Source: an uncultured Alphaproteobacteria bacterium
Lineage (GTDB): Bacteria; Pseudomonadota; Alphaproteobacteria; Micropepsales; Micropepsaceae
Direction of reading: 5' to 3'
NCBI GenBank assembly: GCA_937942205.1
Contig: CALDFO010000474.1
Span: forward strand, 1-10,611
Length of the DNA stretch: 10,611 nucleotides
Below, one piece after another: positions 1-10,611 of the stretch (the stretch's first letter is position 1; every line of letters begins with the position of its first letter). The notes beneath the pieces were generated by a model. The model saw only the letters and a list, made by a program, of their open reading frames with translations. It did not search any database and had not been told where the DNA came from. The position numbers and the translations under genes were made by a program.

Positions 1-885
1 GTCACGGGCGGCGAGGCGCTGGGCTTCGCGCACCGCTTCTTCTGGTGACAGGAACGGCACCACCCAATCGCTTTCACCCCCGGTGACGCGCCGCGCCAGC
101 GCCGCGACAGCCTGTTCCAGGCCTTCGCCGTTTTCGCCATAGCCCCAGACCGCCGCGCCGCAGCCCTCGAAATCGGCGGCGGGAAAGCCGGGCGTGAAGG
201 AGAGCATCATGCCGCCCGCCTGCTCGGCGGCGGCCAGCGCCGCATAGGTGCCGCGCGCCGGTTCCACCAGGGTGCACATGGCGTTGATGGGGATCAGGAA
301 AGGCAGGCGGCGCATGGCGCGGTGGAAGGGTTGACCCCGCCGCAACAGGCTTTGCATCAGATGCGCGGCGCGGTCGCCTGTCTCCGCCATGTCCTCATGC
401 GGATAGGTGCGATAGGCGACCAGCGCGTCCGCCGTCTCGATCATCCGGCGGGTGACATTGCCGTGCAGATCCAGGCTGGCGACGATCGGCACGCGCGGTC
501 CCACCGCCGCACGCAGCCGCGCCAGCAATTCGCCTTCGCCGTCCTCGACATGGGCGCAGACCATCGCGCCATGCAGGTCCAGATAAACTCCATCGAAATC
601 GCCGCCCCGCGCCGCCGCCACGATCTCGCTCGCGATGCGTTCAAAGGCGTCCTCGCGCACATGCGCGGCGGGCGTCGCCCCTGCCCAGACGGCGGGCACC
701 AATTCGGCCTGGGGCATGGCGCGGATGAAACCGCCGATGGGAATGTTGACGTCGCGCATCGCCAAAAGGTCCGCGCCCCGCGCCATGGCGGGGAACGCCC
801 CGCCGCGCACGAAATCGTCATAGCCCGTGGGCGAGGGGGCGAAGGTGTTGGTCTCGTGCTGGAAACCGGCGATCAGAAGGCGCAT
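1..885 (-). CDS. M81 family (MlrC/microcystinase-C-like) metallopeptidase, 3' end beyond window
   Basis: The minus-strand frame is open from an ATG at 885 to the left edge, giving 295 residues with no stop, so the C-terminus is missing. Family members are usually about 500 residues. The N-terminus carries the family signature FQHETNTFAP (residues 8-17). DLHGAM (103-108), SLDLHGN (137-143) and TYPHED (160-165) follow, the His/Asp-rich motifs typical of the M81/DUF1485 N-terminal domain that builds the metal site. MlrC itself degrades linearised microcystin and its tetrapeptide in sphingomonads. Most homologues have unknown substrates, so peptide or amide hydrolysis is a family-level assignment. 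No signal peptide is visible, so it is probably cytoplasmic. The start is the first Met and begins directly with the conserved MRLLIAGFQHE. No clear Shine-Dalgarno precedes it. The gene is divergent from the efflux operon, about 200 bases away. Confidence 0.9.
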   Translation of the reverse strand, partial: MRLLIAGFQHETNTFAPSPTGYDDFVRGGAFPAMARGADLLAMRDVNIPIGGFIRAMPQAELVPAVWAGATPAAHVREDAFERIASEIVAAARGGDFDGVYLDLHGAMVCAHVEDGEGELLARLRAAVGPRVPIVASLDLHGNVTRRMIETADALVAYRTYPHEDMAETGDRAAHLMQSLLRRGQPFHRAMRRLPFLIPINAMCTLVEPARGTYAALAAAEQAGGMMLSFTPGFPAADFEGCGAAVWGYGENGEGLEQAVAALARRVTGGESDWVVPFLSPEEAVREAQRLAARD

Positions 886-1083
886 GGGCGGGAACTTTAG
901 CGCGGCCCGGCTCTGACGCAAAGTCTGTGAAATCAACAGGTTAGGGGAACGGTTCTGCCGCCGCCGCGCCAGCCCGCGCGGTTGGGGCCACTCTGAGGTT
1001 AGTCTCTGGCAAAGGCCTTAACCCGAATCACTCTTTTTGCTTGGTATCGGTCACGGCGCATGGGGCGCGCACGAAGGATTTTG
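886..1083. promoter_or_regulatory. Divergent intergenic region between the M81 peptidase and the efflux operon
   Basis: This gap must carry the promoters of both diverging genes. I could not identify a convincing -35/-10 pair on either strand. Visible sequence features are a GGTTAG direct repeat (939-944 and 997-1002), an inverted copy TAACC at 1019-1023, the small dyad GAAC-G-GTTC (947-955), the palindrome AAGGCCTT (1012-1019) and one GANTC methylation-type site (GAATC, 1025-1029). No regulator gene of the EmrR/MarR or TetR kind lies in the window, so operon control is probably exerted from elsewhere. Confidence 0.5.
1073..1078 (+). promoter_or_regulatory. Ribosome binding site deciding the start of the outer-membrane factor
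   Basis: GAAGGA lies five bases before the ATG at 1084, an almost ideal Shine-Dalgarno placement. The alternative ATG at 1060, in the same frame, has no comparable site and would put eight Arg-rich residues (MGRARRIL) ahead of the signal peptide. Confidence 0.7.
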
Positions 1084-2511
1084 ATGCCCACACGGCTTGC
1101 AACCTGCGCGTTGCCGGTGCTGCTGCTGTGCGGCTGCGTCGGCGCGCCCGCCACCACGCCACAAACGGCCGAGGTGCCGCCGCAGGCGCTGGGCCTGGGC
1201 ACGGACCCCGCGCCGCCCTCGGACCTGGCATGGTGGACGGCGTTCGGCGATCCGCAGGTGGACCGGCTGGCCGGACGGCTGATGCAGTCCAATCCCACCC
1301 TTCAAGGTGTGTTGGCGCGCATCCGTGCCGCCCAAGCCGATATCTCCATCAACCGCGCCGCCAACTATCCGCAAGTCAGTCTCGACGCCTCGGTCCAGCG
1401 CATGTTGCTGTCCGACGCCTATATCTTTCCTGCCGGATTCGGCGGCAGCAGCCTGTGGGCGGGCGATGTGCAGGCGCGCCTGTCCTGGTCGCTGGACTTC
1501 TGGGGCAAGCAGGCGGCGCTGATCGACAAGGCGCGCGGCACCGCCGCTGCGGTGGCGCTGGATGGGCAGGCGGCGCGGCTGGCGCTGGCGGGGACGTTCG
1601 CGCAAGCCTATGTCGGCCTGTTCCTGGCCTGGCGGAATGTGGACATCGCCGGTCAGGCGGTGCGCGAGCGCCAGACCATCCTGGAACTCACGGAAAGCCG
1701 CGTGACGGCGGGACTGGAGAATGCGGCGGCGCTGGAACAGGCCAAGGCGCTGCTGGCCATGTCGCGCATCGAGGGGATGAAGTTCGAGGCCCAGCGCGAT
1801 GTGTCGATTCATGCCATCGCGGCGCTGACCGGACAGGGCGCCGCCGCCTATGCCGCCATCGAACGGCCGGTGGCGGCGTTGGACACGGCGCTGCCCTTGC
1901 CCACCGCGCTGCCCGCCGATCTTCTGGCGCGGCGTCCCGACATCCTGGCGGCGCGGGCGCGGGTGACGGCGGCGCTGCGCGGCCGCGATGCCGCCCATGC
2001 CGATTTCTTCCCCAACATCAACCTGGCCGCCAATATCGGGCTTCAGGCGGTGGGGCTGGGCAACATCTTCACCGATGACGCCTTCACGGCGGGGGCGGGC
2101 CCGGCGCTGCATCTGCCGATCTTCGATGCGGGGAAAATCCGCGCCCAGTACGCGCGGGCCACCGCCGATCTGGACCTGGCGGTGTCGGAGTATAACGCCA
2201 CGGTGCTCGGCGCGGTGCGCCAGGTGTCCGATGCGCTCACCCAGGTCAAAAGCCTGGAAGCCCAGCGTGTCCAGCAGCAGCTGGCGCTGGACAGCGCCGC
2301 CCGCGCCTTTGCCCTGGCCGAGGAGCGCTACCGGCTGGGGCTGGACGGCCAGCTTCCCATGCTGACGGCCCAGAACACCCTGCTGGCCGCCCGCCAACAG
2401 ATGGCGGCGCTGGTGTCGCTGGCGGTGATCCAGCGCGTGACCCTGCTGCTGTCGGTGGGCGGCGGCTTTGCGCCGTCCGGTGACAGCGCCACACAGGATT
2501 CCAGACCATGA
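1084..2511 (+). CDS. NodT-type RND/MFS efflux outer-membrane factor (TolC-superfamily lipoprotein)
   Basis: A 475-residue protein, the normal length for NodT/OprM-type outer-membrane factors. These form a trimeric channel that carries substrates from the periplasm through the outer membrane. The N-terminus is a lipoprotein signal peptide: MPTRLATCALPVLLLCGC with the lipid-accepting Cys at residue 18 (lipobox L-C-G-C). The mature start is followed by the characteristic WWTAFGDPQVDRL segment. Two outer-membrane-efflux (OEP) repeats follow. Family landmarks are SLDFWGK, near residues 138-144, and the conserved LLARRPDILAARARV stretch that opens the second repeat, then FFPNINLAANIGLQ. The start at 1084 is preferred over 1060 because of its ribosome binding site. 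The stop overlaps the adaptor start as ATGA, so the two are translationally coupled. Gene order (OMF, adaptor, pump) indicates a complete tripartite exporter. The substrate cannot be told. Confidence 0.93.
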   Translation: MPTRLATCALPVLLLCGCVGAPATTPQTAEVPPQALGLGTDPAPPSDLAWWTAFGDPQVDRLAGRLMQSNPTLQGVLARIRAAQADISINRAANYPQVSLDASVQRMLLSDAYIFPAGFGGSSLWAGDVQARLSWSLDFWGKQAALIDKARGTAAAVALDGQAARLALAGTFAQAYVGLFLAWRNVDIAGQAVRERQTILELTESRVTAGLENAAALEQAKALLAMSRIEGMKFEAQRDVSIHAIAALTGQGAAAYAAIERPVAALDTALPLPTALPADLLARRPDILAARARVTAALRGRDAAHADFFPNINLAANIGLQAVGLGNIFTDDAFTAGAGPALHLPIFDAGKIRAQYARATADLDLAVSEYNATVLGAVRQVSDALTQVKSLEAQRVQQQLALDSAARAFALAEERYRLGLDGQLPMLTAQNTLLAARQQMAALVSLAVIQRVTLLLSVGGGFAPSGDSATQDSRP

Positions 2512-3680
2512 GCGATTCCGCCCAGACCCGCGCCGAAAAGAACCGCGCCGAAAAGACCCGCGCCGAACGCCGCCGCAAGGGCTTCCTGCTGATGGGGGTG
2601 GCTCTGTTGCTGGCGGCGCTGGCCTGGGGCCTGTGGTGGCTGCTGGTGGCGCGCTTTCGCGAAATCACCGACGACGCCTATGTCGCGGGCAATATCGTGG
2701 TGGTGACCAGCCGCGAGAACGCCACGGTCACCGCGCTTCATGCCGACAATACCCAGAGTGTCCGCCGCGACCAGCTTCTGGTCGAGATGGACCGCGCCGT
2801 GGCCGAGGTGGCGGTGAAGGCGGCCGAGGCCAATCTGGCGCGCGCCGCGCGCGGCGTGCGGGGGGCCTTTGCGGGCGCCGATTCCACGCAGGCGCAACTG
2901 GCCCAGGCGCAGGTGGCGCTGGCCCGGGCGCGCAGCGACTATCAGCGACGCCAGTCCGCGCTGGGCGGGGCGGTGTCGGGCGAGGAAGTCGCCCATGCCC
3001 GCGACGCGGTGCGGGCGGCGGAAAGCGCGGTCAACGCGGCCCGTTCGGGCCTGGATCAGGCGCGGTCCGGCATCGCGGGGGCGGATGTGGCGAACAATCC
3101 CGAAGTGCTGGCGGCGGCGGCGCAGCTGCGCGCCGCGATGATCACCCGCAGCCATATGCGTCTGGCCGCGCCGGTGGATGGGGTGGTCGCCCAGCGCACG
3201 GTACAGGTGGGCCAGCGGGTGGCGGCGGGCCAGCCGCTGCTGGCGGTGGTGCCGCTGGACCATGTCTGGGTGGATGCCAACTTCAAGGAAGTGCAGCTGG
3301 CGAACATGCGCGTCGGCCAGCCGGTGACGGTGACGGCCGATATTTACGGCGGCGGCGTCACCTACAAGGGCAAGGTGGCGGGGCTGGGCGCGGGGTCGGG
3401 CAACGCCTTCGCCCTGCTGCCGCCGCAGAATGCCAGCGGCAACTGGATCAAGATCGTGCAGCGCGTGCCGGTCCGCATCGCGCTGGACGCGGCCCAGCTC
3501 CAAAACCATCCCCTGCGGATCGGTCTCAGCGTGACGGCCAAGGTGGACATTTCCGACACTTCCGGGCCGCTGGTGGCGTCGGCGCCCGCGCAAGGCGTGA
3601 TGCGCGCCGATGCCGATGACGCGGTGGACGCCCAGGCCGATGCGGCCATCGCCCGGATATTGTCCGAGAACAGCCGGTGA
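2508..3680 (+). CDS. emrA: EmrA-type HlyD/membrane-fusion periplasmic adaptor
   Basis: At 390 residues it is the same size as Escherichia coli EmrA. A charged cytoplasmic tail (residues 1-24) precedes a single membrane anchor (about 26-48), then the EmrA-type signature DDAYVAGN (55-62). The first half of the split lipoyl/barrel-sandwich domain follows. A long Ala/Gln/Arg-rich helical hairpin covers roughly residues 90-205. The second lipoyl half is marked by LAAPVDGVVAQRTVQVGQ, followed by a beta-barrel region with VWVDANFKEVQL and a DISDTSGPL tail. The protein should link the inner-membrane pump to the outer-membrane channel in the periplasm. The ATG at 2508 overlaps the upstream stop by four bases, with AGGA at 2495-2498 nine bases before it. 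The stop overlaps the pump's GTG. The symbol is a family-level assignment; orthology is not proven. The cytoplasmic tail holds a short tandem repeat, listed separately. Confidence 0.93.
   Translation: MSDSAQTRAEKNRAEKTRAERRRKGFLLMGVALLLAALAWGLWWLLVARFREITDDAYVAGNIVVVTSRENATVTALHADNTQSVRRDQLLVEMDRAVAEVAVKAAEANLARAARGVRGAFAGADSTQAQLAQAQVALARARSDYQRRQSALGGAVSGEEVAHARDAVRAAESAVNAARSGLDQARSGIAGADVANNPEVLAAAAQLRAAMITRSHMRLAAPVDGVVAQRTVQVGQRVAAGQPLLAVVPLDHVWVDANFKEVQLANMRVGQPVTVTADIYGGGVTYKGKVAGLGAGSGNAFALLPPQNASGNWIKIVQRVPVRIALDAAQLQNHPLRIGLSVTAKVDISDTSGPLVASAPAQGVMRADADDAVDAQADAAIARILSENSR
2529..2573 (+). repeat. Three-copy 15-base in-frame tandem repeat in the adaptor N-terminus
   Basis: Three consecutive 15-base units begin CGCGCCGAA and encode RAEKN, RAEKT and RAERR (residues 8-22 of the adaptor). 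The first two copies differ at one base. The third diverges at its 3' end. The repeat lies in the charged cytoplasmic tail just before the membrane anchor and keeps the frame, so changes in copy number would only lengthen or shorten the tail. Confidence 0.85.
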
Positions 3681-5230
3681 GCCGCGCGGCGGCGGGACAT
3701 GCCCCGGCGCCGCTCACCGGCGCGGCGCTGGGCGTCACCGCCCTGGCGCTGGCGCTGGGCACCTTCATGCAGGTGCTGGACGCCACCATCGCCAATGTCT
3801 CGCTGCCCACCATCGCGGGCAATCTGGGGGCGTCCACCGACCAGGCGACCTGGGTGATCACCGCCTTCGTGGTCGCCAACGGCATCGGCGTGCCGCTGAC
3901 CGGCTGGCTGATGAACCGCTATGGCGTGGTGCGGACTTTCGTGGCCTCGGTGCTGGCCTTCACCGCCATGTCCTTTCTGTGCGGCATCGCCTGGAATCTG
4001 GAGTCCCTGGTGTTCTTCCGCGCCCTGCAGGGGGCGGTGTCCGGGCCGATGATCCCCGGCTCCCAGGCGCTGCTGCTGTCCATTTTCCCCTCCAGCCGCC
4101 GCGCCACCGCGCTGGGCATCTGGTCCATCACCACGCTGGTGGCGCCGGTCTGCGGCCCGATCATCGGCGGCTATATCTCCGACAACTGGCATTGGGGCTG
4201 GATATTCCTGATCAATGTGCCGGTGGGACTGCTGGTGGCCTTCCTGTGCTGGAACAACCTGGCGTCGCGCGAGACGCCCACCGCCCGGCTGCCGATAGAC
4301 GCGGTCGGCCTGGGCCTTCTGATCGTCTGGGCGGGCGCGCTGCAGATCATGCTGGACACCGGCAAGAATGCCGATTGGTTCAATTCCAGTTGGATCGTGA
4401 CACTGGGCGTCATTTCGGTGGTGGGATTCTGCGCCTTCCTGCTGTGGGAGTGGACGGAGGAGCATCCCATCGTGGACCTCTCCCTGTTCCGCGACGCCAA
4501 CTTCACCCTGGGCACCATCGTGCTGTGCCTGGGCAATGCGGTGTTCTTCGCCAACATGCTGCTGCTGCCGCTGTGGCTGCAAACCCAGCTCGGCTATACC
4601 GCCACCTGGGCGGGTCTGGTGACGGCGCCCACCGGCATGGTGGCGGTGCTGCTGACGCCGCTGGCGGCGCGGATGATGGCGCGGTTCGATGCCCGGCTGG
4701 TGGCCAGCATCGCCTTCGCGGCCTCGGCGGTGTCCTATTTCATGCGCGCCGAACTGACGGCGGAGGCGGATGTCTGGGCCTTCGTGCTGCCGCTGCTGGT
4801 ACAGGGCATCTCCTCGGCCACCTTCTTCATCGCCCTGGCCATGATCGTGCTGGACGGGATTCCGCCGCAGCGGATTCCGTCCGCCACCGGCCTGTCGAAT
4901 TTTGTCCGCATCCTCGCCAGCGGCTTTGCGGCCTCCTTCGTCACCACCCTGTGGGACCAGCGTGAGGCTTTTCACCAGAGCCGGTTGTCGGAGGCCGCCA
5001 CCGCCACCGCGCCGGCGTTCAACCATGCCCTGTCCACCCTGCAGGGACTGGGGCTGGGCGAGCTGCAGGCCAAGGTGGCGATCAGCCAGAAGATGGTGAG
5101 CCAGGCCTACCTGCTGGGGGCGCTGGACATCTTCCATCTTTCCGCCCTGGTCAGTCTGGTGCTGGTGGGCGCGGTCTGGGCCTGCCGCCGCCCGGCGCGG
5201 CATGACGCGGCGCCCGCGCCGATCGACTAG
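3677..5230 (+). CDS. emrB: EmrB-type DHA2 family MFS drug efflux permease (14 TM)
   Basis: A 517-residue inner-membrane proton antiporter of the DHA2 (14-TM) drug:H+ class, close to the length of E. coli EmrB. Signatures are the motif D1 stretch QVLDATIANVSLPTIAG with the conserved Asp35, motif A as GWLMNRYGVVR (76-86) after the second helix, and the antiporter motif C as APVCGPIIGGYISD (156-169), followed by HWGWIFLINVPVG. Hydrophobic segments continue to the last helix near residue 490-505. Translation most likely starts at GTG 3677, which overlaps the adaptor stop as GTGA. No Shine-Dalgarno is apparent, consistent with coupled translation, and the ATG at 3699 is out of frame. It completes the tripartite exporter. 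The substrate is unknown; hydrophobic drugs, fatty acids or a secondary metabolite are all possible. Its stop faces the ligase stop only three bases away. Confidence 0.93.
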   Translation: MSRAAAGHAPAPLTGAALGVTALALALGTFMQVLDATIANVSLPTIAGNLGASTDQATWVITAFVVANGIGVPLTGWLMNRYGVVRTFVASVLAFTAMSFLCGIAWNLESLVFFRALQGAVSGPMIPGSQALLLSIFPSSRRATALGIWSITTLVAPVCGPIIGGYISDNWHWGWIFLINVPVGLLVAFLCWNNLASRETPTARLPIDAVGLGLLIVWAGALQIMLDTGKNADWFNSSWIVTLGVISVVGFCAFLLWEWTEEHPIVDLSLFRDANFTLGTIVLCLGNAVFFANMLLLPLWLQTQLGYTATWAGLVTAPTGMVAVLLTPLAARMMARFDARLVASIAFAASAVSYFMRAELTAEADVWAFVLPLLVQGISSATFFIALAMIVLDGIPPQRIPSATGLSNFVRILASGFAASFVTTLWDQREAFHQSRLSEAATATAPAFNHALSTLQGLGLGELQAKVAISQKMVSQAYLLGALDIFHLSALVSLVLVGAVWACRRPARHDAAPAPID

Positions 5231-5233
5231 GCG

Positions 5234-6793
5234 TCAGGCGCCATAGCGGGCCACGATGGCCTTGCGGTCGATCTTCAGGTTGGGCCGCAACAGGCCGTTT
5301 TCGCGGGCGAAGGGGGCGTCGGTGAACACCACCTCCACGAACTGGGTGATCTTTTTGGTCGATTGCAGTCCCGCCGCATGAGCCTTGATGCGCTCGCGCG
5401 CTCCGCCGGTTTCCGGGCGGACAAGGTCCACCACGCAGGTGAGATGGGTGCTGCCGGACCGCAGGCACACCACCGAATGCGCCACGTCGGGGCAGTTGTT
5501 CATCTCCTGCTCGATCACTTCAGGATGCACCTTGTAGCCGCCGGGGGTGACGATCAGTTCCTTCTTGCGCCCCAGAAGAAACAGGTTGCCGTTATGGTCC
5601 AGCCGCCCGATATCGCCGGTGGCGATGCGCCCATCGCCGATAAAGGTGCGTTCATTCTCGCCCTCGGCGCACTGGAAGTAGCGCAGGGTCATGGGCCTGT
5701 CGCGATGGACGATGATCTCGCCATCGTCGCGGAACGAGAGGTTCACGCCTTCCAGCGGCTTGCCGACCGAGCCGAACTCCCGGCTGCCGGCGGCACGGAA
5801 GGTCAGCGAGCCGGTTTCCACCATGCCGTAGCTTTCGCACAAGGGAAGCTGCATACGCGCGAAGAACTGGCCGATAGTGCGCCGGATCGGGGCCATGCCG
5901 GTCATCAACACGCGCATCCGGTTGCCGAACTGGGCATGGAAATCCGGAAACAGCCGCCGCGCCAGGGCCAGGCGCAGGCCCGCGCCCGGCAGCCTGGAGA
6001 GCAGAGACCCCAGGCCCAGCCGCAACACCTGCTTCCAGCGCGGCAGTTTTTCGAAATCGGCATGGATCATCTGGAACAGCACCGGCGGCGCGATCAGGAT
6101 GGTCGGCGCCAGGGCCTTCATCGCCGCGAACACCTTGGCGGTGTCGGTGATGATGATGTCGATGTCCTTCCACAGCGCCCCATAGCACATGTTGCGCTGC
6201 TGGAAGTTCGACATGGGCAGGAACAGCAGCAGCCGGTCGTCAGGCCGGAGGCCCAGAATGTCCGTGATCGGCGGCAGGGTGGATTCCACGCCCTTGCGGC
6301 TGATCACCAGACCTTTCAGCCCGCCGGCCGAGCCGGAGGAAAAGGCCAGGCTGTGATGGTCGTCTTCGTCCGGCTCACCCGATGCGGGGCGTTCCAGCGC
6401 GCGAACCGCGCCATTGTCCCCGTCCAGAAAGGCGACATGCGCGGGACGGTCCGGGAACAGGCGGGCGCTGTCCCGCGAAATCAGCAGCAAAGCGATATTG
6501 TAGCGGTCCAGCAGGTCATCATTGACGGCGCCGGCGAAATCGTCGGTGAAGGGCACCGAGATCGCGCCGATATCCAACAGGGCGAGATCATGCACCAGCC
6601 ACGGATAGGAGTTGGGCGCATAGATGCCGACCCTGCTGCCGCGCCGGACACCCCAGCCTTGCAGGCGCGCAATGGCGTCGCGTACGTCCTGATGGAGGTC
6701 GGCATGGCTATGGCGGACCGGCTTGCTGCGTTCCAGCGTGTAAACCGCCTTCGTCTTGGCCGGCAGTCCGTGAACCAGTGCCCGGAATTCCAT
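5234..6793 (-). CDS. AMP-forming acyl-CoA synthetase/ligase (ANL superfamily, long-chain fatty-acid ligase-like)
   Basis: 519 residues from ATG 6793. ANL enzymes activate a carboxylate to an acyl-adenylate and pass it to CoA or a carrier-protein thiol. Core motifs in order are the phosphate loop FSSGSAGGLKG (151-161), MTGMAPI (298-304), ESYGMVE (320-326), TGD (392-394), the hinge GRKKELIVTPGGYKVHPEVIE (408 on), and the C-terminal ENGLLRPNLKIDRK, which places the catalytic Lys at about 507. The last two fit fatty-acyl-CoA ligases rather than NRPS adenylation domains. The phosphate loop departs from the usual SGTTGxPKG: Ala replaces the second Thr and Leu replaces Pro, although Gly and Lys are kept. 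The start is uncertain: in-frame GTG 6805 has AGGGG just upstream and TTG 6826 is also open. It may be co-transcribed with the GNAT gene upstream (197-base gap). The acyl substrate is unknown. Confidence 0.88.
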   Translation of the reverse strand: MEFRALVHGLPAKTKAVYTLERSKPVRHSHADLHQDVRDAIARLQGWGVRRGSRVGIYAPNSYPWLVHDLALLDIGAISVPFTDDFAGAVNDDLLDRYNIALLLISRDSARLFPDRPAHVAFLDGDNGAVRALERPASGEPDEDDHHSLAFSSGSAGGLKGLVISRKGVESTLPPITDILGLRPDDRLLLFLPMSNFQQRNMCYGALWKDIDIIITDTAKVFAAMKALAPTILIAPPVLFQMIHADFEKLPRWKQVLRLGLGSLLSRLPGAGLRLALARRLFPDFHAQFGNRMRVLMTGMAPIRRTIGQFFARMQLPLCESYGMVETGSLTFRAAGSREFGSVGKPLEGVNLSFRDDGEIIVHRDRPMTLRYFQCAEGENERTFIGDGRIATGDIGRLDHNGNLFLLGRKKELIVTPGGYKVHPEVIEQEMNNCPDVAHSVVCLRSGSTHLTCVVDLVRPETGGARERIKAHAAGLQSTKKITQFVEVVFTDAPFARENGLLRPNLKIDRKAIVARYGA

Positions 6794-6990
6794 GTGATAC
6801 GCCACGTGCCCCTGCTGCCGCCGCAATCATGCCAGGGGTATATGCGCTTCAGCCGATGCCGGGGCGCCGGGATGGCCCCCCGAATCCGGGAATGTCCGCC
6901 CCCCTGAACGTCCATGCCCCAGCCGAGGCAACGAAACTACTTTAGGGCGCAGTCCGTGTCATCAGGCAACCGGAAGTTTTTCCAGGGGCC
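6794..6990 (-). other. Intergenic gap between the GNAT gene and the ligase gene
   Basis: This is the leader of the ligase gene if it has its own promoter, and otherwise an intercistronic spacer. Two small inverted repeats sit at the end of the GNAT gene: GGCCT-C-AGGCC (6987-6997), spanning its stop codon, and CCGGAA-GTTT-TTCC-A-GG (6970-6986) just beyond it. Neither is followed by a T-tract on the minus strand, so a rho-independent terminator is not supported. I see no convincing promoter. Confidence 0.4.
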
Positions 6991-8485: not shown

Positions 8486-9082
8486 ATGATTTTTCGTCAA
8501 GATCGAGGCATGAATGTCATTGCCGCGGCCAGGGCACTGAATCAGAAAGCGGTGCAACGGAACTGGTATCACTATTGTGATCCCACGCTGGCGTTCTCCG
8601 ACGCCAGCTACCACAAGCTGTTGTCCGTTTGGCGGGACAAGGCGGCGGGCCGCGCAATGCCGTCGCGGTCGCAGATTTCGGCACGCGATCTTAAGGATTT
8701 CCTGCGCAACATCCTGCTGTTCGAACGCGTGGCGAAGGACCCTTCTCGCTACCAGTGGCGATTGATCGGAACAGGCATGACGGATCTAACAGGGCATGTG
8801 ACGGGAAAGATGCTAGAGGACACCGTTCCGGAAGAGCATCTGCCACGCTGGATCGAATGCGGTGATCTGGTGCTGGAGGGCGGCCAGCCGCTGCGGTTCC
8901 TGGGCCGGGTCCACATCAGCGGGCGCGAATATCTCGATGCGGAGAACCTGTTCATTCCGCTGGCCAATGACAATGACGAGCCCAGCTTCGTGATGGGGTT
9001 GTGCCGCTATACCCCGCGCACCTCCGACAGCATGGAAAGCTGGGAGAACGAGCTGGCCTCGATCCCCGGCGCGCTTCTCTAG
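8486..9082 (+). CDS. Single-domain PAS protein (PAS_5 type)
   Basis: 198 residues with no recognisable output domain. The middle resembles the PAS_5 family common in Alphaproteobacteria: YHKLLSVWRDKAAGRAMPSR (42-61), ISARDLKDFLRNILLFERV (64-82), the signature YQWRLIGTGMTDLTGHVTGK (89-108), then a HISGREYLDAENLFIPLAND strand region and FVMGLCRYTP near the end. PAS folds sense small ligands or mediate protein contacts. Without a kinase, cyclase or DNA-binding domain, this one would act by partner binding, or its ligand remains undefined. The start is ambiguous: ATG 8486 gives the longest reading. ATG 8510 (MNVIAAARALNQ) is possible but its GAGG is only one base away. The gene diverges from the GNAT gene, and the transporter gene follows on the same strand after 163 bases. 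Confidence 0.8.
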   Translation: MIFRQDRGMNVIAAARALNQKAVQRNWYHYCDPTLAFSDASYHKLLSVWRDKAAGRAMPSRSQISARDLKDFLRNILLFERVAKDPSRYQWRLIGTGMTDLTGHVTGKMLEDTVPEEHLPRWIECGDLVLEGGQPLRFLGRVHISGREYLDAENLFIPLANDNDEPSFVMGLCRYTPRTSDSMESWENELASIPGALL

Positions 9083-9245: not shown

Positions 9246-10490
9246 ATGCGCGCGTCCGCGTTCCCGGTTTATTATGGCTGGATGGTCCTGGCCGCCTCGG
9301 CCCTGTGCGAGATGCTGGTGATGGGCGCGACCAGTTATGCCGCGGGCCTGTTCGTGCTGCCGCTGCAGGCGGAATTTCAGGTGTCCCGCGCCGCCGCCAG
9401 CAGCGCCATCCTGATCCTGTTCCTGGGCGCCGCCATCGCCGCGCCCTTCATCGGCCGCCTGCTGGACCGCCATCCCATTCGTCTGGTGATGTGCGGCGGC
9501 GCCATCGTGCTGGGCCTGTCGCTCAGCGCCATTGCCTTGTCGCCCTCGCTGCTGGTGATGGCCCTGCTGCTGATGTTTCCGGCCGCCTTCGCCTTCATGG
9601 CGGTGGGGCCGCTGACCACCTCCACCCTGGCGTCGCGCTGGTTCTATCGCCGCCGCGGGCTGGCCCTGGGCATCGCCGCGGTTGCCACTTCGGGCGGCGG
9701 CTTCATCGTCGTGCCGTTGCTCAGCGAGGCGATCCAGCGTTTCGGCTGGCGTCAGGGCCTGATGCTGGAAGCCGCCGTGCTGGTGGTGGTGCTGTTCCTG
9801 CTGGGATTTTTCGTGCTGCGCGACAGCCCTGCCAGCGAAGGGCTGGACGATCATCCGGAAAATCACGGCCGCGCCCTGGCCGAGGCCCCGGCGGCGGCGC
9901 GTAAGCTGCCGTTGAAGGACATTCTGTTCAGCCGCGCCTTCTGGATTCCCAGCCTGACCCTGGCCGCCATCTCCGGCACCTGCCAGGCCACGGTGGTGAC
10001 GCTGATCCCCTATGGCCGCCAACTGGGCTTTGCGCCCGCCACGGTGGCGCTGCTGGTGTCGGTCTTCGCGGTCAGCGCCGGCGTCACCAAAGTGGGCGCG
10101 GGTCTGTTGGCCGACCATCTCAACCGCCGCGCGCTGCTGGTGATCGCGGCCCTGTGCATGACCTGTTCCTGGCTGGTGGTCAGCATATCGGCGGAATATG
10201 CGGCGCTGGTGACCTGCGCCGGCCTGGCCGGTGTGGGCCTGGGCTTTGCCCTGCCCACGGTGGGCGCGCTGATCGCGGGCCATTTCGGGGCGCCCAGTTT
10301 CGGAACGGTGATGGGCTGGACCTATGTGCTGGTTCTGCTGTTCGCCATCCTGGCGGTGCTGTTCGCCGCGTCGGTGTTCGACCGCACCGGCAGCTATGTC
10401 CCGGCCTTCCAGAGTTTCGCGGGTCTGTTGGGCGGTCTTCTGCTGCTCAACCTGCTGATGCCGCCGTTCCGCCAAAGCCTGATGCCGTGA
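9246..10490 (+). CDS. MFS transporter, 12 TM (monocarboxylate/oxalate-formate-type subfamily), likely exporter coupled to the NRPS gene
   Basis: 414 residues with two six-helix halves separated by a hydrophilic loop (about 193-224). The N-terminus PVYYGWMVLAASAL is the opening typical of the MCT/OFA-like MFS branch. Motif A reads GRLLDRHPIR (70-79). The branch-typical ASRWFYRRRGLALGIA stretch follows helix 4 (129-144), and a second-half motif A-like DHLNRR is also present. ATG 9246 has AGG six bases upstream. The stop TGA (10488-10490) overlaps the next start as GTGA, so this gene and the assembly-line gene are translationally coupled, which suggests the transporter moves that enzyme's product or precursor. 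Members of this branch carry small carboxylates as well as larger molecules, so the substrate and direction are inferred from context only. It is not related in class to the EmrB-type pump at the left. Confidence 0.87.
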   Translation: MRASAFPVYYGWMVLAASALCEMLVMGATSYAAGLFVLPLQAEFQVSRAAASSAILILFLGAAIAAPFIGRLLDRHPIRLVMCGGAIVLGLSLSAIALSPSLLVMALLLMFPAAFAFMAVGPLTTSTLASRWFYRRRGLALGIAAVATSGGGFIVVPLLSEAIQRFGWRQGLMLEAAVLVVVLFLLGFFVLRDSPASEGLDDHPENHGRALAEAPAAARKLPLKDILFSRAFWIPSLTLAAISGTCQATVVTLIPYGRQLGFAPATVALLVSVFAVSAGVTKVGAGLLADHLNRRALLVIAALCMTCSWLVVSISAEYAALVTCAGLAGVGLGFALPTVGALIAGHFGAPSFGTVMGWTYVLVLLFAILAVLFAASVFDRTGSYVPAFQSFAGLLGGLLLLNLLMPPFRQSLMP

Positions 10491-10611
10491 TCTCAATACC
10501 CCGTTTGCTGGCGGAACTGGAGGGACGGGGTATTCACCTGTCCCTGGCGGAAGGGCAGCTTCGCTATCGCGGCCCCGGCGGGGCCCTGACTCCGGCCGAC
10601 CGCGAGACGCT
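10487..10611 (+). CDS. N-terminus of a putative NRPS or NRPS/PKS hybrid: TubC-type docking domain (partial, runs off right edge)
   Basis: From GTG 10487 the frame stays open to the edge (41 codons plus two bases). The translation starts MISIPRLLAELEGRGIHLSL and continues AEGQLRYRGPGGALTPADRETL. This closely follows the consensus of TubC N-terminal docking domains: LLAEL-x-x-RGI/V-x-L, then a short strand with x-LRYR-x-P-x-GALTP, then the start of the next helix. These roughly 50-residue domains sit at the N-terminus of NRPS or hybrid NRPS/PKS subunits, where they take up the preceding subunit's C-terminus. A condensation domain is the usual next domain but lies outside the window. There is no Shine-Dalgarno; the GTGA overlap with the transporter stop supports coupled translation. 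The alternative that only the small domain is present cannot be excluded here. Confidence 0.75.
   Translation, partial: MISIPRLLAELEGRGIHLSLAEGQLRYRGPGGALTPADRET

Follow-up and report, generated by a model that had tools for sequence, protein, structure and literature searches.

Free-standing condensation enzymes

SgcC5 (C-1027; PDB 4znm) is a free-standing condensation enzyme that acts on a carrier-bound acyl group, like the enzyme proposed here, and is not known to carry a docking domain. Bamb_5915 (PDB 6CGO) is presented in the cited portion of PMC13324335 as the enzyme of enacyloxin chain release, a stand-alone protein with docking and condensation domains. Motifs shorter than 15 residues are described in the relevant passages of PMC9113145 as binding the second strand of the docking hairpin via salt bridges and a hydrophobic face, and the excerpted text of PMC13324335 reports a tail that is dispensable in vivo in another system. 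In the Oaa system, as outlined in the passages of PMC13142362 used here, a discrete adenylating enzyme, a carrier and a condensation (C) domain join an acyl chain to a free amine; the C-domain motif given there is (D/H)HxxxD, followed by Ser, Ala or Gly.

The stretch of DNA analysed here (the window, 10,611 nucleotides) ends in an open frame that encodes a TubC_N docking domain. Comparison with related genomes makes it quite probable that this frame opens the gene for a free-standing condensation enzyme, about 500 amino acids long and with an N-terminal TubC_N domain, encoded in a compact locus of a Rhizomicrobium-like alphaproteobacterium, and that the locus specifies a ligase-carrier-condensation pathway. 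No description of the locus was found in the portion of the open-licence full-text literature that was covered.

Gene content and conserved gene order

The features recognized in the window are collected in Table 1.

Table 1. Features of the window, with the evidence for each assignment.
Position	Strand	Feature	Evidence or remark
1-936		M81-family (DUF1485) metallopeptidase-like gene	Left edge
1060-2511	+	NodT-type outer-membrane efflux channel	TIGR01845, 328.2 bits (cut-off 210.05)
2508-3680	+	HlyD/EmrA-type membrane-fusion subunit	Pfam HlyD_3 and CusB_dom_1 above cut-off
3677-5230	+	DHA2/EmrB-type MFS efflux permease	TIGR00711, 477.7 bits (cut-off 230.2)
5234-6826	-	Stand-alone AMP-binding acyl ligase	Pfam, 118.1 bits
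6991-8334	-	C-terminal GNAT domain protein, weakly FeeM-like	Pfam; P0122, 1305 matches; order survey
8486-9082	+	PAS_5 domain protein, conserved part of the locus	Pfam, 44.5 bits; 62-71% identical in 11 loci
9246-10490	+	MFS transporter (MFS_1)	Pfam, 118.6 bits; adjoins TubC_N-condensation genes in 6 genomes of one order
10487-10611	+	5' end of a probable TubC_N-condensation gene	Cut by the window end; Pfam, PDB 6cgo, frames of relatives

Searches by tblastn with the window proteins recovered a repeated order of outer-membrane channel, HlyD subunit, DHA2 pump, ligase, GNAT protein, PAS protein, MFS transporter, TubC_N-condensation (TubC_N-C) protein and 4'-phosphopantetheinyl transferase (PPTase), in which the ligase and GNAT genes are convergent and the MFS gene is optional, with no MFS match between the PAS and TubC_N-C genes at three places (G811, G796:C96 and G796:C34). 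Judged by this order, the ligase, GNAT, PAS and efflux genes of the window are part of the cluster. The metallopeptidase-like gene had no match in the related loci that were compared with the window proteins. An earlier reading of the window from its sequence alone (the sequence-only reading) had a natural-product cluster starting at the docking-domain frame or continuing to the right; the natural-product-like character of the cluster stands, but a start at this frame probably does not, as seven window genes to the left belong to it by conserved order.

The ligase is 66-70% identical in eight TubC_N loci, and the 25 NCBIfam families shown of the 90 that it matched are mostly acyl-CoA ligases, all under their cut-offs, with PDB relatives of the same kind. 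The true start of the GNAT gene is probably nearer 8235, because a public copy of 414 aa covers 93% of the frame at 100% identity. Ligase and GNAT genes lie alongside at 8 of the 11 above-cut-off TubC_N places in the related order, one place being on a 3.1-kb contig, too short to tell. Two genomes (G812 and G818) carry the condensation gene, PPTase and carrier; GNAT and ligase genes were not found there in the 9-10 kb upstream of the condensation gene, nor a GNAT anywhere in either genome at E <= 1e-90. In both of these genomes, the carrier gene is directly followed by a gene for an M28-family peptidase (L036 12427-14121 and L035 5017-6588, the latter in G812). Genes past the carrier were rejected as parts of the locus for too little repetition, the M28 peptidase occurring at two loci and an amidohydrolase, an enolase-like protein and a sensor kinase at one.

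The order GNAT-PAS-MFS is found without a TubC_N match in five further genomes (G776, G775, G779, G816 and G814). One contig of G776 holds a sister cluster (L023 18345-19826 and L038 734-4627) with a free-standing condensation domain without TubC_N, an isochorismatase-like protein, an ACP, a second GNAT of the family (54% identical to that of the window) and an acyl ligase (56% identical to that of the window). The MFS homologue of locus L029 (G820:C2:16482-17720) has one in-frame TGA, and its neighbours look intact.

The docking-domain frame

The frame (10487-10609, 41 codons, translated as VISIPRLLAELEGRGIHLSLAEGQLRYRGPGGALTPADRET) is open to the window edge, and its GTG start lies within a GTGA (10487-10490) common to the stop of the MFS gene, the 4-base overlap that the sequence-only reading had pointed out. 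The match of the 41 residues to a TubC docking domain, likewise claimed there, is confirmed by TubC_N (PF18563), the single Pfam family in the frame (36.5 bits, E 5.4e-9, cut-off 26), which is matched over profile positions 1-37 of 52 and scores above its cut-off although the domain is cut. By its family, the domain would recruit a carrier protein, in agreement with the sequence-only reading, in which it takes up an upstream partner.

With an HMM built from the N-termini of 120 homologues (those listed of 342 matches), the frame scores 59.7 bits and the next of the six-frame window pieces of at least 20 aa 4.4 bits; the 41 residues themselves score 64.7 bits, and 2000 shuffles reach 9.7 at most. 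A random short match was considered and rejected for this frame. GC by codon position is 0.78/0.54/0.73, and the low second position is shared by three other genes of the window. Because the frame continues open 5' into the MFS gene (from 10154), its start codon is not forced by the sequence; the 4-base overlap of MFS and TubC_N genes is seen again in four of five related loci checked, the fifth having 8 bases.

A PDB search with the 41 residues found the docking domain of 6CGO (Bamb_5915) as the best match (E 9e-11), with AerJ at 0.12 and TubC at 0.5. In six loci, the frame after the same transporter shares 54-67% identity with these residues (over 33-41 aa). The second strand of the hairpin in the window, QLRYR, contains two arginines, which would fit an acidic carrier tail.

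The full-length gene in relatives

The related order was sampled with 96 genomes (probably Micropepsales), of which 11 have MFS homologues (E <= 1e-90) and 11 have TubC_N, above the cut-off in 10; the count of 11 above-cut-off places leaves out G804 (24.5 bits, under the cut-off) and fragments in G800 and G815. TubC_N lies directly 3' of the MFS gene in six genomes (G523, G782, G769, G802, G789 and G820), and the protein encoded after the MFS transporter in these relatives consists of TubC_N and Condensation domains in about 500 aa, followed by PPTase. Pfam searches of the proteins of four relatives gave these two domains and no adenylation, PCP or TE domain. The description of an NRPS assembly-line gene in the sequence-only reading is probably wrong, since the gene of the relatives carries TubC_N and a single condensation domain.

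At each of the 11 above-cut-off places in the order, the frame is 311-553 aa long; a contig end truncates one of the 11, and another is split. The shortest, of 311 aa, belongs to the split gene of G812 (two frames of 307 and 196 aa; L035 8209-9719), and no relative seen has a frame that stops soon after the docking domain, an outcome that had been raised against the assembly-line assignment. The G812 copy looks decayed, with its condensation gene split and only a partial match to the neighbouring MFS gene.

Public, mostly metagenomic sequence clustered at 90% contains 342 matches, of which the 120 listed are each 495-520 aa and have TubC_N and Condensation domains; the window's own protein is absent among these 120, and the closest N-terminus matches that of the window at 29 of 40 aligned positions. 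In the six TubC_N-C genomes that were searched for the Condensation family, TubC_N-C gave the sole match of each genome at E <= 0.001. A homologue, P0319, matches 6CGO over residues 3-499 (E 4.5e-82), and its predicted structure (pLDDT 83.6, pTM 0.85; below 50 at residues 207-214 beside the active-site motif) superposes on 6CGO with a query-normalised TM of 0.84-0.85, the other 48 structures listed reaching at most 0.58. The docking region of the model has the elements H4-13, E17-21, E24-28, H36-44 and H46-63, of which the window covers about the first two thirds.

The carrier and its C-terminal tail

The sequence-only reading saw no carrier in the window and looked for the partner downstream or on the other strand. 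A carrier HMM indeed matched none of 158 window pieces of at least 35 aa at E <= 10, and in the relatives the carrier gene is both downstream of the condensation gene and on the opposite strand, in all eight loci with enough contig. In a PP-binding Pfam search of 11 genomes, a carrier was located just past PPTase in every TubC_N-C genome except the sixth (G820), whose contig ends before that position, and an HMM built from the five locus carriers found three more. Thus, a discrete carrier gene, convergent with that of PPTase, stands past it in 8/8 loci that reach that far, the other three places ending earlier. The stop codons of PPTase and carrier overlap by 4 bases in six of seven loci (L022, L024, L030, L031, L032 and L036) and are eight bases apart in L016. 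The cluster may well continue to the right, as had been supposed, but by homology for only about 2.3 kb (the rest of the condensation gene, the transferase and the carrier).

The carrier ends in E-x-G-x-[LI] in all eight related loci (the five that built the HMM and the three found by it). This tail occurs in 0 of 14 other carriers from the order, a narrow control since 11 of them are of a near-identical primary-metabolism ACP type; the 14, from 31 PP-binding matches outside the five locus carriers, comprise 11 assessed by pattern and 3 read directly. Other likely partners of TubC_N proteins, paired with them by gene order, have tails of the form E-G-x-[LI], one residue closer (Tistrella, DFEEGAL; Janthinobacterium, DYEEGIIR; Shinella, DMTEGTL). 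In the related cluster of G776, whose condensation domain is without TubC_N, the carrier, considered separately from the 14, ends in RLQRECV, the single informative contrast. The carrier tail of the relatives, as sequence, resembles the tails that TubC_N grips, with its spacing one residue off.

Distribution of the GNAT and MFS genes

GNATs of the window's kind occur in 29 of the 96 genomes of the order, 8 with and 21 without a TubC_N-C match; the GNAT therefore need not act with TubC_N-C. All of the seven top-scoring copies come from genomes with TubC_N-C, and the eighth copy from such a genome ranks 13th. A Pseudomonadota sample (398 genomes) gave seven matches, six partial (45-51%) and one near full length (34%). 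Against known acyltransferases the GNAT gave low-score matches only (FeeM-type, 20.6 bits, Pfam cut-off 27), its structural model is weak (pLDDT 67.4, pTM 0.51), so that the N-terminal half of the model is used for no conclusion here, and any role for it in the pathway is a guess.

Among the 120 public matches of the MFS transporter listed (of 572), the best has 93% identity and comes from a contig no longer than 4.5 kb, and the other 119 are at most 65% identical, a few of them labelled Rhizomicrobium or Alphaproteobacteria. One of 385 genomes sampled from a class, G523, has an MFS homologue (60%), and its order is the one represented by the 96 genomes above; a scan of genome contigs with the MFS protein gave two MFS proteins that are distant (25-26%). 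In a megablast search against plasmids, the whole window matched at the pump genes only (4 records, about 75-77% identity), and scans of viral sequence gave no match. Contig sizes shared between the public matches, within the 120 listed for each protein (of 572 MFS, 1305 GNAT and 342 condensation matches), number 12 for MFS and condensation, 19 for MFS and GNAT, and 6 for GNAT and condensation (means after shifting 0.9-1.1; maxima 4, 5 and 5, respectively); the GNAT-condensation pairing taken alone is weak, as 6 compares with a shifted maximum of 5.

Proposed pathway and alternatives

In the proposed pathway, the acyl ligase (5234-6826) would activate a carboxylic acid, and a discrete carrier would take the acyl group. 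The adjacent PPTase would prime this carrier, whose gene is predicted on the opposite strand, about 2.0-2.2 kb beyond the end of the window. The C-terminal tail of the carrier (E-x-G-x-[LI]) would dock on the second strand of the TubC_N hairpin, and the condensation domain (AHMIADA in place of HHxxxDG) would transfer the acyl group onto a free amine or alcohol and thereby release it; ester formation is as possible as amide formation because the condensation enzyme is nearer to Bamb_5915. The GNAT protein may add or prepare a second acyl or amide linkage, and for the EmrAB-like tripartite pump and the second MFS carrier we infer transport of the product or a precursor. The docking domain is read in the window itself, and the gene layout, carrier and tail in the relatives; the continuation of the window's gene is expected by homology, and the docking contact and the order of the reactions are proposals.

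Alternatively, the protein could serve, as Bamb_5915 does for enacyloxin, to release the chain of a polyketide or peptide whose synthesis is encoded at another place in the genome. Bamb_5915 is its closest solved relative, and the Janthinobacterium homologue adjoins large genes annotated as SDR and beta-ketoacyl synthase-like. This explanation is nonetheless unlikely, given that the carrier of the relatives is discrete and encoded beside the condensation gene, that a single Condensation match was obtained in 10 of the 11 genomes searched and none in the remaining one, and that the subset of ORFs of the relatives and the window put to Pfam contained no ketosynthase or other PKS domain.

A condensation domain that is catalytically dead or regulatory, its HHxxxDG having become AHMIADA, has still less to recommend it and is judged improbable. 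Among the 120 homologues listed of the 342, the motif is AHMIADA in 116, AHMIADG in 2, SHMIADA in 1 and NHFISDA in 1, so that the first place, never His, is taken by Ala (118 homologues), Ser (1) or Asn (1), whereas HHIIVDA is retained in 6CGO and the Janthinobacterium homologue. Conservation is complete, however, for the second His and the Asp (120/120 of those listed), and the same two residues are highly conserved in fatty-acid-amide C domains, 36% of which have Ala in the last place (PMC13142362, in the passages cited). The last place is also Ala in Bamb_5915 (6CGO), and thus only the first His sets the relatives apart.

That the frame opens a large NRPS or NRPS/PKS subunit continuing to the right, as might be expected from plasmid records with a TubC_N-like match (10 of 13 annotated there as NRPS, adenylation or condensation genes, with Tistrella and Shinella cases in open frames of 1470, 1643 and 1207 aa), is very improbable, and a multidomain NRPS can probably be rejected, given the sizes of all 11 above-cut-off frames in the order, the proximity of the docking domain to that of a stand-alone condensation enzyme, Bamb_5915, and the stand-alone TubC_N-C gene, with TubC_N and Condensation only, that follows the same upstream gene in six genomes. 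On these comparisons the sequence-only reading was half right, in the docking, the carrier-based chemistry and the other-strand partner, and probably mistaken in the multidomain NRPS and the cluster start.

If the ligase-carrier-condensation reading is correct, the locus offers a three-piece condensation system small enough for reconstitution in vitro, in which two discrete proteins carry a natural docking pair. The contribution of beta-hairpin and tail, in which published systems differ according to the cited portion of PMC13324335, could then be tested directly with separate carrier and enzyme, and the 342 matches, of which the 120 listed all have this make-up, would represent an unstudied product family common in public, mostly metagenomic sequence. 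More speculatively, and with the balance of probability against it, such loci might be widespread miniature pathways in which docking elements of giant synthases hold a lone carrier on a lone condensation enzyme and which, with the ligase and GNAT, yield an exported small molecule bearing two acyl groups, which might be a signal or surfactant.

Comparison with known systems

The enzyme predicted for this locus resembles Bamb_5915 in being a free-standing TubC_N(betaHD)-C protein (P0319 is 36% identical over the whole structural alignment), and the related loci would resemble the Bamb_5915/Bamb_5917 pair in having a partner carrier with a putative C-terminal SLiM (PMC9113145 and PMC13324335, cited portions). 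Unlike Bamb_5915, the relatives have as donor carrier a discrete small protein encoded beside the condensation gene, which itself lies amid acyl ligase, GNAT, PPTase and efflux genes, and their motif is AHMIADA rather than the HHIIVDA of 6CGO. SgcC5 (4znm) compares with the P0319 model at a TM of 0.58. The FeeM-type N-acyl amino acid synthases share a GNAT fold with the window's protein and suggest a plausible acyl-transfer role for it, the match being under the cut-off.

The OaaA/OaaACP/OaaC system, the nearest working model, is similar in that a discrete ligase, a carrier and a free-standing C domain are encoded in one locus in the relatives, the window showing the ligase and the start of the C gene. 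Docking by TubC_N is not mentioned for Oaa in the passages of PMC13142362 cited, and the present locus adds a putative docking pair to the three parts, together with GNAT, PPTase, PAS and efflux genes. The motif is non-canonical in both, with the second His and the Asp kept, but the first place is Ala in the relatives, not Asp or His. The acceptor is a free small molecule in Oaa and presumably also in this locus.
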